This document shows, piece by piece, positions 956-34,358 of a stretch of 34,605 nucleotides of DNA. The translations under genes were made by a program, and so were the position numbers. Location of the stretch: assembly GCA_004375965.1 (NCBI GenBank), contig SOIS01000036.1, forward strand, positions 1 to 34,605. The letters run 5' to 3'. The stretch's first letter is position 1, and each line of letters begins with the position of its first letter. The notes under the pieces were generated by a model that saw only the letters and a program-made list of their open reading frames with translations, searched no databases and had not been told where the DNA came from. Source of the stretch: Candidatus Cloacimonadota bacterium (GTDB lineage: Bacteria; Hydrothermota; E44-bin80).

Positions 956-2428
956 ATGAGGCCGATCCTGAGATTTCTTGATGATGAACTTATAGAGAGA
1001 ATAATTTCGGAAGCAAGGGATGTTCTCTGCAAACTTGGTGTCGAAATTAACAACAAGAACATTCTTTCTATGCTACAAGACCATGGTGCAACAGTGGAGA
1101 TAGATAATAACCACGTTCTTTTTACAGATGAGATTATTGACAGGGCATTGAAAACAGTCCCACCCTCCTTCAAACTCTACGATGTTCTTGGCAATGAAAC
1201 CCATAATTTTTCAGAATATAATGTCTATTTTACTCCTGGCTCTGCTGCGCTACATATCCTCGATTACGAAACAAAAAAAATTCGCAAACCAAAAACTTCT
1301 GATTACATCAGGTATGCAAAGGTTATAAGTCGGCTTGATAACATTGTTTCCCAGAGCACAGCATTTATACCTGCTGATGTTCATGAAAAGATCTCAGATA
1401 GCTATCGTCTCTACCTCAGCCTTCTTTTTTGTGAAAAACCTGTTGTCACAGGAGCATTTACAAGCGAAGCGTTTGCTATTATGAAGGACCTGCAGCTTGC
1501 AATTCGCGGTACAGAAGAAGGACTTGTTGCAAAACCCCTTACAGTATTCTCCTGCTGTCCAACTTCTCCGATAAAATGGAGTGATGTAACATCGCAGAAT
1601 GTTGTTGACTGTGCTCACTATTCTATCCCGATAGAATTAGTATCTATGCCATTGTCAGGATTTATTGCACCTGTCACCCTTGTTGGAACATTGGTGCAGC
1701 ATACCGTTGAGACACTAAGTGGTATTGTAATAAGCCAGTTAACCAATCCAGGAACACCAATCCTTTACGGTGGTTCACCCTCCATATTTGATGTCCGTTA
1801 CGAGACAACACCAATGGGGGCTGTGGAGACAGAGATGATTGATTGTGCATATAACGAGATAGGAAAATACCTTGGTATGCCAACCCAGGCTTATATATCA
1901 CTCAGCGATGCAAAACAGTTTGATGCGCAGGCAGGACTCGAATCATCAATGGGAGCAACTCTGGCAGCCCTTTCCGGTATAAACAGCATATCGGGTCCTG
2001 GAATGCTCGATTTTGAAAGCTGCCAGAGCCTTGAAAAGCTCATTCTTGACAATGAAATTTGCGGAATGACCCTTCGTTTAATAAAAGGAATAGAGACAAA
2101 AGAGGATTTTCCTTCACTTCCGAGATTCAAGGAACTTCTCAAGGAAAAACACCTCCTTATTTCAAAACATACCAGTCGTTACCTCAAAGAAGAATTTTAT
2201 TTCCCTGGACCTGTAATAGATAGGGCTAGCAGAGCAAGATGGCAAGAGGAAGGTAGTTTAACACTCTGGGAAAGGGCACATAGTGAGGTGGAAAGATTAA
2301 TAAAGGACTATTCGACATCAAGACTACAGGAAGATACAAAAAGGGAGTTGACAAAACTGATGAAAGCGGAAGCAAGCCGATATGGGATGGAGTTTTTACC
2401 AAGTGAGTGTAAAAAATATTTGCTTTAG
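956..2428 (+). CDS. MttB-family (non-pyrrolysine) corrinoid methyltransferase
   Basis: A 490-residue member of the trimethylamine methyltransferase family (MttB/COG5598 type). The family moves a methyl group from a methylated amine to the cobalt of a partner corrinoid protein. The sequence is family-like throughout, including the Gly/Pro-rich stretch PILYGGSPSIFDVRYET, the segment LSDAKQFDAQAGLESSMGA, and a C-terminal RARWQEEGSLTLWERAH. There is no in-frame TAG, so it is of the pyrrolysine-free kind, whose characterised members use quaternary amines such as glycine betaine. The actual substrate cannot be read here. ATG 956 is preferred over the in-frame TTG at 941, because that TTG lies within the Shine-Dalgarno region. 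It heads an operon with an activation protein, a corrinoid protein and a homocysteine methyltransferase, which fits methyl transfer to homocysteine. Confidence 0.88.
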   Translation: MRPILRFLDDELIERIISEARDVLCKLGVEINNKNILSMLQDHGATVEIDNNHVLFTDEIIDRALKTVPPSFKLYDVLGNETHNFSEYNVYFTPGSAALHILDYETKKIRKPKTSDYIRYAKVISRLDNIVSQSTAFIPADVHEKISDSYRLYLSLLFCEKPVVTGAFTSEAFAIMKDLQLAIRGTEEGLVAKPLTVFSCCPTSPIKWSDVTSQNVVDCAHYSIPIELVSMPLSGFIAPVTLVGTLVQHTVETLSGIVISQLTNPGTPILYGGSPSIFDVRYETTPMGAVETEMIDCAYNEIGKYLGMPTQAYISLSDAKQFDAQAGLESSMGATLAALSGINSISGPGMLDFESCQSLEKLILDNEICGMTLRLIKGIETKEDFPSLPRFKELLKEKHLLISKHTSRYLKEEFYFPGPVIDRASRARWQEEGSLTLWERAHSEVERLIKDYSTSRLQEDTKRELTKLMKAEASRYGMEFLPSECKKYLL

Positions 2429-2431
2429 TAC

Positions 2432-2482
2432 AACAGCCGATCCATCCTGGCTCGCAAAACGAGCCAGGATGCCTCGGCTGTT
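2432..2482 (+). repeat. Long two-part intergenic hairpin
   Basis: The outer stem AACAGCCGA/TCGGCTGTT (9 bp) encloses a 2-nt by 2-nt internal loop, then an inner stem CATCCTGGCTCG/CGAGCCAGGATG (12 bp) around the loop CAAAA. No T-run follows, so it is unlikely to be a simple terminator. It lies 3 nt after the mttB-like stop and about 20 nt before the next ATG. It may stabilise or differentially process the operon mRNA, or be a REP-type insertion. Confidence 0.75.
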
Positions 2483-2502
2483 AGACAAATCAGAGTAGCT
2501 TT

Positions 2503-3246
2503 ATGAGAGAGATAATCGAAATTTCAAACGGTGATATAACGGCAGAGAAAGACAAAGTTTTAATGAATCAGGGTATCTCTCTTAAAGATGAACTGCCAGA
2601 AAAAGTAATAACTCTTCTTGGAAAAGCAATGGATATTTTCATTACATTTTCCCATCCTGTAGGTATCATTTCAGATATTTCAATTTCTGAATTTGACACT
2701 GTATATAAGGGTGAAGGACTTAATGAAAAGGATACTCCCGTTGATGAAATTTTCAGGGAGGCAGATAATCTTGCTCTTTTTGCCGTTACAATCGGTGAAA
2801 AAGTGAGTAAAAAAATAGATGAACTCTTCAAAAAAAATGAATTTGCCCTGGGAAGTATGTTGGATTCTACAGCTTCAGCTGGTGCTGATAAGGCAGCTGA
2901 TATTGTTGAAAACCGTTTTTTAAATCTGCTCCTGAAAGATGGAGAGGCTACTCCCTCAACAGGAATTTTAAGATATAGTCCTGGTTACTGCGGGTGGCAC
3001 ATAAGCGGGCAGAAAAAGCTATTTGAATTTATCCATCCTGAGGAGATTGGTATCACACTGCTTGATAGTTTTCTAATGAAACCGTTAAAATCAGTATCAG
3101 GTGTAATCGTTGCTGGAAAAAAAGAAATTCATAACTTTGAAGACTCTTATCCGTTCTGCAGTCAATGCAAAACGCACTCCTGTAGAGAAAGGATACGGGC
3201 TCTCTTTATAGAAGATAGCCCTAACAACAGGCAAGGTAGAACATAA
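2503..3246 (+). CDS. MetH-activation-domain-like protein (corrinoid reactivation)
   Basis: A 247-residue protein related to the C-terminal activation domain of cobalamin-dependent methionine synthase, which binds S-adenosylmethionine during reductive remethylation of cob(II)alamin. The signature is RYSPGYCGWHISGQKKLF at residues 157-174, matching the RxxPGY SAM-binding motif. The C-terminus has a Cys cluster (Cys219, Cys222, Cys227, in FCSQCKTHSC) that could hold a metal or iron-sulfur centre; that is inference. Stand-alone versions occur beside corrinoid proteins and MttB-like methyltransferases. Its stop overlaps the next start by one base (TAATG), so it is translationally coupled to the corrinoid protein it probably services. 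The ATG lies about 20 nt after a long hairpin and has only a weak ribosome site. Confidence 0.8.
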   Translation: MREIIEISNGDITAEKDKVLMNQGISLKDELPEKVITLLGKAMDIFITFSHPVGIISDISISEFDTVYKGEGLNEKDTPVDEIFREADNLALFAVTIGEKVSKKIDELFKKNEFALGSMLDSTASAGADKAADIVENRFLNLLLKDGEATPSTGILRYSPGYCGWHISGQKKLFEFIHPEEIGITLLDSFLMKPLKSVSGVIVAGKKEIHNFEDSYPFCSQCKTHSCRERIRALFIEDSPNNRQGRT

Positions 3247-3887
3247 TGGATTTATTAAAAGAGATTTTGGAACACTTGCAGCACGGTGATGATGAAAAGG
3301 TAACAGCACTAACAAAAAAGGCTTTAGAAGAAAAAATACAACCTAAAGACATACTCGATAAAGGACTTATTGCTGGCATGAATATAATAGGTGAAAAGTA
3401 CAAGGCTCATGAAATATTTCTTCCTGATGTGCTCCTTGCTGCAAAGGCAATGTATGCAGGAATGGATCTGCTGAAACCACTGTTTATACAAGAAGGTATA
3501 CCAACTATTGGAAAAGTGATCATAGGTTCAGTTCATGGTGACCTGCATGATATCGGAAAAAACCTTGTAGGCATAATGCTCAAAGGTGCCGGCTTTGAAG
3601 TTATTAACCTTGGTAACAATGTTACACCTGAGAAATTTATAGAGACTGCACAGCAGGAAAATGCTGCTGTTATAGGTATGTCTGCTCTTCTTACAACAAC
3701 CATGCCAGTTATGAAAAGGGTTGTAGACCTTCTAAAAGAAAAAGGACTTAGTGGCAGAATAAAAATAATAATTGGTGGAGCACCCGTCTCAGAGGAATTT
3801 GCTCAAGAGATAGGAGCGGATGCATATGGCTATGACAGTGTTAACGCAGTTGAAACGGTCACAAGACTGATGAGTAAAAGCAGATGA
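3246..3887 (+). CDS. Corrinoid (B12-binding) protein, MtbC/MtgC type
   Basis: A 213-residue cobalamin carrier. Residues 1-85 form the helical cap domain (IGEKYKAHEIFLPDVLLAAKAM is characteristic in order, about 48-69). Residues 88-210 form the Rossmann-like cobalamin-binding domain with GDLHDIGKNLVG at 98-109; Asp99-x-His101-x-x-Gly104 is the lower-ligand motif, His101 being the cobalt ligand. A later GGAP motif fits the nucleotide-tail pocket. Its length is normal for the family. It would take a methyl group from the MttB homologue and deliver it to the homocysteine methyltransferase two genes on. It overlaps the preceding gene by one base. Confidence 0.92.
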   Translation: MDLLKEILEHLQHGDDEKVTALTKKALEEKIQPKDILDKGLIAGMNIIGEKYKAHEIFLPDVLLAAKAMYAGMDLLKPLFIQEGIPTIGKVIIGSVHGDLHDIGKNLVGIMLKGAGFEVINLGNNVTPEKFIETAQQENAAVIGMSALLTTTMPVMKRVVDLLKEKGLSGRIKIIIGGAPVSEEFAQEIGADAYGYDSVNAVETVTRLMSKSR

Positions 3888-3929
3888 GAAACGCAGGAAG
3901 CGCAGAGAGCAAAGGGATGGAATAGGAAA
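3888..3929. other. Short purine-rich spacer after a stop codon
   Basis: A 42-nt gap beginning directly after the corrinoid-protein stop, rich in CGCAG units (ACGCAGGAAGCGCAGAG). Such phrases recur between genes in some candidate-phylum genomes. A weak GGAATAGGA ribosome site precedes ATG 3930. Confidence 0.3.
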
Positions 3930-4829
3930 ATGAAAGATTTGCTTAAACGACTAAAGAATGGTGAGATCTTTATTGCAGATGGCGCAATGGGTACAATGCT
4001 TATGGCGTGCGGTCTTAAACCGGGTGATGTTCCAGAATCTTTCAATCTTACACAACCAGAGATTCTTGAAAAGATCGCCAGTCTCTATCTTGATGCCGGG
4101 GCAGAGATAATCCAGACCAATACATTTGGAGCTTCACCATTAAAGCTTTCGTTCTATTCGCTTGATGGCAAAACTGAGGAAATAAATAGAAATGCTGTCC
4201 TTGCAGTTCGGAAAGTAGTAGGAGAGCGCGCATACATCTCTGCATCTTGCGGTCCAAGTGGAAGGCTCTTAAAACCGTATGGAGATACTGAACCCGAAGA
4301 TGTTTATAGTAGTTTTGAAAGACAACTAAAGACACTCATACATTCGGGGGTCGATATTATCTGTATAGAGACAATGACCGATTTAACTGAAGCCACACTT
4401 GCCATCAAAGCAGCAAAAACCGTCTCGCCACCAACCCCTGTTATGGCAACAATGACTTTTGATCCCACACCAAGAGGTTTTTACACAGTAATGGGTATTA
4501 ACATAGAACAGGCTGCGAAAGGACTTGAAACTGCAGGAGCAGATATTATAGGCTCGAATTGTGGTAATGGCATAGAGAATATGATAAAGATAGCCATAGA
4601 GTTCAGGCAAAAAAGCAGGCTTCCATTGATTATCCAATCCAACGCTGGTCTTCCAGTGATAAAAAGGAATACTACTGTTTACCCTGAGACACCAGAGTTT
4701 ATGGCAGAGAAAGCGAAAGAACTTGTTTCGATAGGTGTCTCAATCATCGGAGGCTGTTGTGGTACAACCCCGGAGCACATTCGAGCACTATGTGAAATGG
4801 TGGATCGGAGAATAGGAAAGAACAGATGA
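3930..4829 (+). CDS. Homocysteine S-methyltransferase domain protein (MetH N-terminal module)
   Basis: A 299-residue stand-alone homocysteine-binding barrel like the first module of MetH. It starts GEIFIADGAMGTML (11-24), contains IIQTNTFGAS (60-69), and carries the three zinc-binding cysteines: Cys211 in GSNCG, and Cys276-Cys277 in GGCCGT. The zinc activates the homocysteine thiol. No pterin-binding or cobalamin module is fused; the cobalamin module is the separate gene at 3246. The predicted product is methionine made from the methyl group carried on the corrinoid protein. A folate-independent BHMT-type enzyme is the alternative, but the adjacent corrinoid gene makes the cobalamin route more likely. 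Confidence 0.88.
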   Translation: MKDLLKRLKNGEIFIADGAMGTMLMACGLKPGDVPESFNLTQPEILEKIASLYLDAGAEIIQTNTFGASPLKLSFYSLDGKTEEINRNAVLAVRKVVGERAYISASCGPSGRLLKPYGDTEPEDVYSSFERQLKTLIHSGVDIICIETMTDLTEATLAIKAAKTVSPPTPVMATMTFDPTPRGFYTVMGINIEQAAKGLETAGADIIGSNCGNGIENMIKIAIEFRQKSRLPLIIQSNAGLPVIKRNTTVYPETPEFMAEKAKELVSIGVSIIGGCCGTTPEHIRALCEMVDRRIGKNR

Positions 4830-34004: not shown

Positions 34005-34030
34005 CTTAGTTACATAATTACAATAAATGT

Positions 34031-34358
34031 ATGGAGAGGAGCGTAAGCCGGATTCTGTTTGGATGGTCATCTATCTAAGCGACCTACCCGAGGGTCAAGC
34101 GAGCAGGACTACTCTTCCCTCCTATTCGGTCTTGCACCGGGTGGGGTTTACAAAGCACCTCATATTTCTATGAAGCCTGGTGTGCTCTTACCACACCGTT
34201 TCACCATCGCCTGTGTCTTTAATAAGACCATCGGCAGATTACTCTCTGTTGCACTATCCATCGCCTCACAACGCCTCCGTGTTACGGAGCACCCTGTCCT
34301 GTGGTGTCCGGACTTTCCTCCCCGGCAAATACCGGAGCGACCATCTGCTCCTCTCCAT
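34031..34358 (-). ncRNA. rnpB: RNase P RNA, bacterial type A
   Basis: The catalytic RNA of RNase P, about 328 nt. Read on the minus strand it opens with ATGGAGAGGAGC, which pairs perfectly with the closing GCTCCTCTCCAT (helix P1, 12 bp). It contains the near-invariant GAGGAAAGTCCGGACAC (start of P4 / conserved region I), GGTAAGAGCACACCAG (conserved region II-III), and the 3' conserved ACAGAATCCGGCTTA. The layout fits the ancestral A type. The ends are inferred from P1. It has its own strong promoter. Several open frames overlapping it are spurious. Confidence 0.96.

Follow-up and report, generated by a model that had tools for sequence, protein, structure and literature searches.

A conserved four-gene operon of uncultured bacteria that probably encodes a folate-independent, cobalamin-dependent methionine synthase with its own methyl-donor enzyme

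What would donate the methyl group of methionine in an operon that encodes most modules of a cobalamin-dependent methionine synthase and lacks the folate module? In nearly all known routes to methionine, folate supplies the methyl group; the exceptions rely on MetE-type enzymes or BHMT. The question is raised by a 34,605-nucleotide contig of a Candidatus Cloacimonadota bacterium (SOIS01000036.1; the window, for short), numbered C24 among the 263 contigs of a 2.29-Mb draft genome, here G000, that is estimated to be 94.9% complete. Four adjacent genes of the window encode a methyltransferase of the MttB superfamily, a protein resembling the activation domain of MetH (the activator), a corrinoid protein, and a homocysteine S-methyltransferase (HMT):

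956..2428, + strand: MttB-superfamily (COG5598/PF06253) methyltransferase, non-pyrrolysine, in a clade of its own; proposed methyl-donor:corrinoid methyltransferase
2503..3246, + strand: protein like the MetH activation domain (PF02965) and TM0269 (1j6r), with a C-terminal CxxCx4CxxR; proposed corrinoid reactivase
3246..3887, + strand: corrinoid (B12) protein of the MtgC/MtbC/MttC type (PF02310 + PF02607); methyl carrier
3930..4829, + strand: MetH-type HMT (PF02574); methyl acceptor module with zinc ligands Cys211/Cys276/Cys277

Judging from sequence comparisons, these genes probably work together as a cobalamin-dependent methionine synthase that is independent of folate and includes a methyl-donor enzyme.

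The MttB reading frame starts at the ATG at position 956, just downstream of AAAGGAG, and residues 2 to 468 of its product match positions 29 to 492 of the 500-position PF06253 profile (E = 1.5e-70), which places the protein in this family. The other products match PF02965 (activator, E = 1e-10), PF02310 and PF02607 (corrinoid protein, E = 1.2e-29 and 1.1e-23), and PF02574 (HMT, E = 1.8e-65). An initial annotation of this DNA had reported four adjacent genes of these families, the motifs RYSPGY and DLHDIG, and the cysteines at 211, 276, and 277 of HMT, all of which we recovered. It had also stated that the folate module is absent and that an MttB homolog takes its place; indeed, no pterin-binding domain (PF00809) occurs within the operon, which therefore does not add up to a MetH with pterin, HMT, B12, and activation modules, and MttB belongs to the conserved unit described below.

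HMT finds its best structural match in Thermotoga MetH (1q7m, E = 8.8e-52), human BHMT scoring only E = 2.3e-19, and its C211, C276, and C277 are invariant among 12 aligned HMTs, in agreement with the three-cysteine zinc site of a MetH-type module. A BHMT-type enzyme using betaine directly was thus rejected, HMT being far nearer to MetH, and this affiliation points to HMT as the acceptor module for methylcobalamin. Residues 6 to 202 of the activator match TM0269 of Thermotoga (1j6r). For the corrinoid protein, which has the conserved features GDLHDIGKN, S146/L148, and GG177-178, MttC and a Moorella corrinoid protein score above the B12 domain of MetH. Given these affiliations and that of MttB, the operon combines two halves, one biosynthetic (HMT and activator) and the other typical of methyl-group catabolism (MttB and corrinoid protein). 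The initial view of a dismantled MetH holds in that the operon can be read as a synthase split into separate genes, but its corrinoid protein belongs with the methylamine/MtgC type rather than with the MetH B12 type, and the operon is better described as a new combination than as a broken MetH.

We infer the direction in which the methyl group moves, the class of donor, the part played by the activator in reactivation, and the electron source. MttB would strip a methylated donor of one methyl group and load it onto the Co(I) form of the corrinoid protein. HMT would bind the thiolate of homocysteine on its zinc, held by three cysteines, and accept the methyl group from methyl-Co(III) to yield methionine, while the small activation protein would re-reduce the corrinoid after it slips to Co(II).

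How widely is this unit kept? Scanning genome contigs for relatives of the window MttB yielded 319 confirmed matches, the best 80 of which were read; 61 of these loci offer at least 2.8 kb beyond MttB. The order MttB, activator, corrinoid protein, HMT is found in 45 of the 61 loci, so the adjacency of the four genes is not due to chance. The remaining 16 have the activator in front (2 loci), lack the activator (5), contain the first three genes only (1), are broken by a run of N (1), or contain MttB alone (7, six of them from Acidobacteria/Terriglobia). According to the sequence titles, the full order occurs in Stahlbacteria, WOR-3, Zixibacteria, Planctomycetes, Aminicenantes, Neomarinimicrobiota, Fermentibacteria, Cloacimonadota, Acidobacteria, Electryonea, Eisenbacteria, and Gemmatimonadota, spanning at least 10 phylum-level labels, which are those of metagenome-assembled genomes and may carry binning errors. 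Comparison of the neighborhoods of these relatives revealed no gene other than the four that recurs beside MttB across groups. In the 47 four-gene loci, MttB is the most conserved member, with a mean identity of 70% (62% for the corrinoid protein, 60% for HMT, and 44% for the activator), and the pairwise distances of the four genes correlate (r = 0.66 to 0.81). MttB occurs in 19 of 120 sampled phylum genomes, with 49 to 82% identity and, in contrast to methylotrophs, as a single copy. One contig of G006 (L090) begins, by eye, within the C terminus of MttB, which has been cut by the contig end rather than lost. Terriglobia and other Acidobacteria (loci L182, L185, L187, L192, and L197 to L201) have MttBs of the same clade, about 70% identical, and the three partner genes are not nearby.

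Is the operon the only methionine synthase of its hosts? Relatives were searched with profiles for the MetH modules (TIGR02082), the pterin domain (PF00809), MetF (PF02219), and the catalytic domain of MetE (PF01717), and 11 single-contig genomes provide the fairest test set. A pterin-bearing MetH and a PF02219 MetF occur together in six of them (G072, G121, G122, G124, G126, and G127); neither was found in the other five (G090, G098, G120, G123, and G125). The Fisher probability of this 6/0 versus 0/5 split is 1/462, by a hand calculation that ignores relatedness. G120 has MetE-like genes, and no MetE (PF01717) was detected in G090, G098, G123, or G125. Since PF02219 MetF, MetE, and the MetH pterin module all went undetected in these four genomes (three WOR-3 and one Zixibacteria), the operon is their only methionine-synthase candidate, and the drafts G033, G069, and G110 show the same pattern. 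The MetF negatives rest on PF02219, MTHFR_2 (PF19345) not having been searched genome-wide; PF02219 alone can miss a reductase, as G036 and G046 show, where a split MetE has an MTHFR_2-like gene next to it. At the G036 locus (L095 998-3962), separate genes for the C- and N-terminal domains of MetE are followed by a weak match to MTHFR_2, of mycobacterial type; the operon is also present in this genome.

The same searches speak to folate itself. No PF00809 protein other than dihydropteroate synthase (DHPS), and hence no pterin subunit like MtgD, was found in 13 of the 19 MttB-bearing phylum genomes, although a contig break weakens the case of G000. The leftover PF00809 proteins are DHPS, for example in G000, G090, G098, and G110, so folate is evidently made in these genomes. 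The initial suggestion of an organism short of folate one-carbon metabolism is therefore too strong, and "without methyl-tetrahydrofolate" is nearer the mark; G000 has both a DHPS gene (folP) and, at a contig end, a reductase gene discussed below.

The window MttB groups with Stahlbacteria/WOR-3 sequences inside a clade of its own. The position of pyrrolysine 334 (Pyl334) is occupied by Leu315 in the window MttB and by Leu or Phe in all 84 clade sequences, no in-frame TAG/pyrrolysine codon occurs in the window gene, and its product scores 351.6 against an NCBIfam cut-off of 525 for the pyrrolysine trimethylamine methyltransferase MttB. These features set it apart from the trimethylamine enzyme. 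Its identity to MtgB, the glycine betaine methyltransferase, is about 27%. Substrate contacts of MtgB have been proposed from a docking model: Y94, N199, R309, H345, and F/Y353 (PMC6855144). Assuming an offset of one residue between that numbering and the 9yce chain, the corresponding residues are S95, C200, Q310, S345, and E353, each kept in 80 to 84 of the 84 clade members. Glycine betaine is disfavored as the donor, since all five of the proposed contacts, themselves docking-based, differ. A pocket that is near-constant across the clade and unlike that of MtgB suggests a single shared donor other than glycine betaine. Non-pyrrolysine MttB relatives with established substrates act on acidic quaternary amines (PMC12155760), and the donor is most likely a quaternary ammonium compound, a class that follows from the family only. 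The earlier proposal that methionine is made with methyl groups from a methylated amine thus gains from the four genomes in which the operon is the sole candidate, while its donor remains a matter of family membership, with glycine betaine disfavored. AlphaFold, given a 15-row alignment, modeled MttB with a mean predicted local distance difference test (pLDDT) score of 54, and this model was left unused.

Catabolic MttB systems use RamA to reactivate the corrinoid. RamA, recognized by the RACo C-terminal domain (PF14574), is absent from 21 of the 23 genomes searched, and RamA-type reactivation is accordingly not indicated for them. It is present only in G036 and G046, both of which lack the activator in the operon as well as in the rest of the genome; this coincidence suggests that the activator does the job of RamA. 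Among 60 aligned activators, Cys163, Gly164, and Trp165 of the YSPGYCGW motif are invariant, as are Cys219, Cys222, Cys227, and Arg230 of the CxxCx4CxxR tail (window 3090-3190), which lies beyond the part aligned with TM0269. From the spacing of its cysteines, we would guess that this tail forms an iron-sulfur, zinc, or other metal site. In the S-adenosylmethionine (AdoMet) motif RxxxGY, G161 is kept in 60 of 60 activators and Y162 in 59, but Arg157 in just 31, and whether the activator uses AdoMet is uncertain.

Could the four genes be read otherwise? That they are mere neighbors, adjacent by chance or loosely co-located with no shared function, would fit the Terriglobia loci with MttB alone and the 74-base, hairpin-containing gap between MttB and the activator in the window; with the same order in 45 of 61 loci and at least 10 phylum labels, genes that overlap or nearly touch, and correlated distances, this is exceedingly improbable. 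A catabolic demethylase, in which MttB and the corrinoid protein mainly feed tetrahydrofolate (THF) via an unlinked MtgA/MtrH-like protein and methionine is a side branch, has precedents in MtgB, MtpB, MtcB, and MthB (PMC12155760) and in Ruegeria (PMC12478193), the organisms including Desulfitobacterium and Eubacterium, and PF02007 was not searched here. However, the operon contains no pterin methyltransferase in any phylum, the genomes (G000, G090, G098, G110, and others) have just DHPS-type PF00809 proteins, PF02219 MetF is absent in several genomes and RamA in nearly all, and the conserved partner is HMT rather than a THF methyltransferase, all of which makes a demethylase improbable. We give slightly less credit still to the idea that the MttB of this clade has turned into a methyl-THF:corrinoid methyltransferase, so that the operon would run the ordinary MetH reaction with a nonhomologous folate module. 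MttB and the pterin methyltransferases do share a TIM-barrel fold (PMC9842639), MttB stands in the place of the folate module, and its pocket is unlike that of MtgB. Yet G033, G069, G090, G098, G110, G120, G123, and G125 are not expected to make methyl-THF because they lack PF02219 MetF (MTHFR_2/PF19345 was not searched there), and the MetF-bearing genomes retain a true pterin MetH or MetE alongside the operon.

Unlikely, but deserving more weight than any of these, is that the chemistry is as proposed and the purpose is another: in organisms that make no homocysteine of their own, the operon would only recycle the homocysteine left by AdoMet-dependent methylation, or methylate another thiol or selenol. 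In G000, G098, and G123, the main PF01053 enzymes most resemble methionine gamma-lyase, all below curated cut-offs, the G000 gene (L223 1640-3367) lying between genes for methylmalonyl-CoA epimerase and cobalamin adenosyltransferase/MeaB, and no strong PF01053 protein was found in G033, G036, or G046. On these grounds, the operon may only recycle homocysteine in some hosts. G125, however, has a cystathionine gamma-synthase-like gene beside CysK, HMT retains the zinc ligands of homocysteine methyltransferases, and the argument from missing homocysteine synthesis is a limited one, the reductive route (DUF39/NIL proteins) not having been searched.

Several points weigh against a dedicated, folate-independent methionine synthase, the reading that we nevertheless prefer. 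Several genomes show no clear de novo route to homocysteine, within the limits just given. Some hosts have another synthase besides the operon, as 6 of the 11 single-contig genomes also have MetH and MetF; Terriglobia have the MttB of the clade mostly without partner genes nearby; the exchange of RamA and activator concerns one genus and so counts as one event; and the searches for pterin methyltransferases left out the MtrH/MtgA-type PF02007. Finally, the MetH of G000 may be missing through an assembly gap. G000 has no MetE catalytic domain (PF01717), which, with an acceptor of PF02574, also sets the operon apart from MesA to MesD, and DHPS is its only PF00809 protein. A PF02219 search of G000 gave no match, a misleading result, since contig C108 ends inside a 386-residue open reading frame (ORF; L089 6507-7665) that matches the fusion of HMT and methylenetetrahydrofolate reductase (MTHFR) PRK08645 up to profile position 378 of 611. 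From this truncated ORF, an MTHFR gene exists in G000. MetH starts 5 bp after the HMT-MTHFR fusion in G019, of the same family, and in G006 a MetH-like HMT, cut by the contig end, follows the fusion. With the G000 fusion cut at a contig end and MetH directly downstream in G019, MetH possibly lies in the gap, and the case for folate independence is weaker for G000 than for its single-contig relatives. What the initial annotation had named as evidence against its proposal, a complete metH or metE plus metF together with no methionine formation by the four proteins, or else methyl transfer to tetrahydrofolate only, is about half present for G000.

The MttB-activator gap of the window contains one further feature:

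2434..2482, no strand assigned: hairpin (-41 kcal/mol, z -9.8); probably a mobile palindrome like the repetitive extragenic palindromic (REP) elements, outside the system

This near-perfect hairpin resembles a mobile element of the REP kind that has entered the operon, given that a similar palindrome core stands at the same junction in G006 next to a REP-type (Y1) transposase (L090 70-566). Searches around the operon, in the window and in 18 relatives, turned up no cobalamin or AdoMet (SAM) riboswitch, and Rfam PYLIS_3 matches were rejected as RNA elements, being merely homologous mttB coding DNA. The M20 peptidase gene downstream and an ORF upstream were rejected as parts of the system because neither recurs among relatives. 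A class A bacterial RNase P RNA lies at 34029-34356 on the - strand of the window. In G098, a second corrinoid cassette (L228 3887-6424) comprises an MtgC-like corrinoid protein, an MtaA/URO-D-like methyltransferase, and an HGD-D reductase, with selenium-system genes nearby.

If the proposal is right, the operon represents a MetH-type exception to folate-dependent methionine synthesis, with its own donor enzyme, across many uncultured sediment and subsurface phyla, and explains how homocysteine is methylated in lineages without MetF, MetE, or MetH. It also gives a handle on an uncharacterized, unusually conserved MttB subfamily, as the proposed acceptor and reactivator would allow donors to be screened by methionine formation. 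We did not find the four-gene unit described in a literature search, which did not cover subscription journals and preprints.

Among described systems, the closest is the MtgBCDE set found in Ruegeria pomeroyi, Phaeobacter inhibens, and Sinorhizobium. There, the demethylation of glycine betaine and the synthesis of methionine share one corrinoid protein, the pterin subunit MtgD is essential for both, and RamA and DUF1638 are described for reactivation (PMC12478193). Both systems have an MttB-family protein, a free-standing corrinoid protein, and a free-standing HMT, but the present operon has no pterin gene and a MetH-type activator instead of RamA, which is absent in nearly all genomes, and the MttBs of Roseobacter plasmids are just 26 to 28% identical to that of the window. 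The core methionine synthases MesA, MesB, MesC, and MesD, which make up the four folate-independent families known, also lack a folate-binding domain and are all MetE-type (Meth_synt_2) (PMC7857596; core-MetE, PMC7005905), MesA to MesC being thought to draw methyl groups from corrinoid proteins of central metabolism (PMC7857596). Our operon would likewise make methionine from homocysteine without such a domain, as proposed from the genes alone; its acceptor, in contrast, is MetH-type (PF02574), and it brings its own corrinoid protein and donor enzyme. More tentatively, it may be a dedicated, fifth folate-independent synthase of many uncultured phyla and the first to be assembled from parts of MetH, with one specific methylated donor, which would be neither glycine betaine nor trimethylamine nor methyl-THF, and an iron-sulfur MetH-type activator. 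As in Thermotoga maritima, the activator is TM0269-like (1j6r) and HMT is closest to the HMT of TM0268 (1q7m); unlike TM0268, whose single chain combines the HMT and folate modules, the operon has no folate module, and its activator has the extra CxxCx4CxxR tail. With MtgB, MtpB, MtcB, MtyB, and MthB, it shares a non-pyrrolysine MttB-superfamily enzyme and an MtgC-type corrinoid partner, but those enzymes pass methyl groups to THF or coenzyme M for energy or carbon, whereas here the acceptor partner is a different one.

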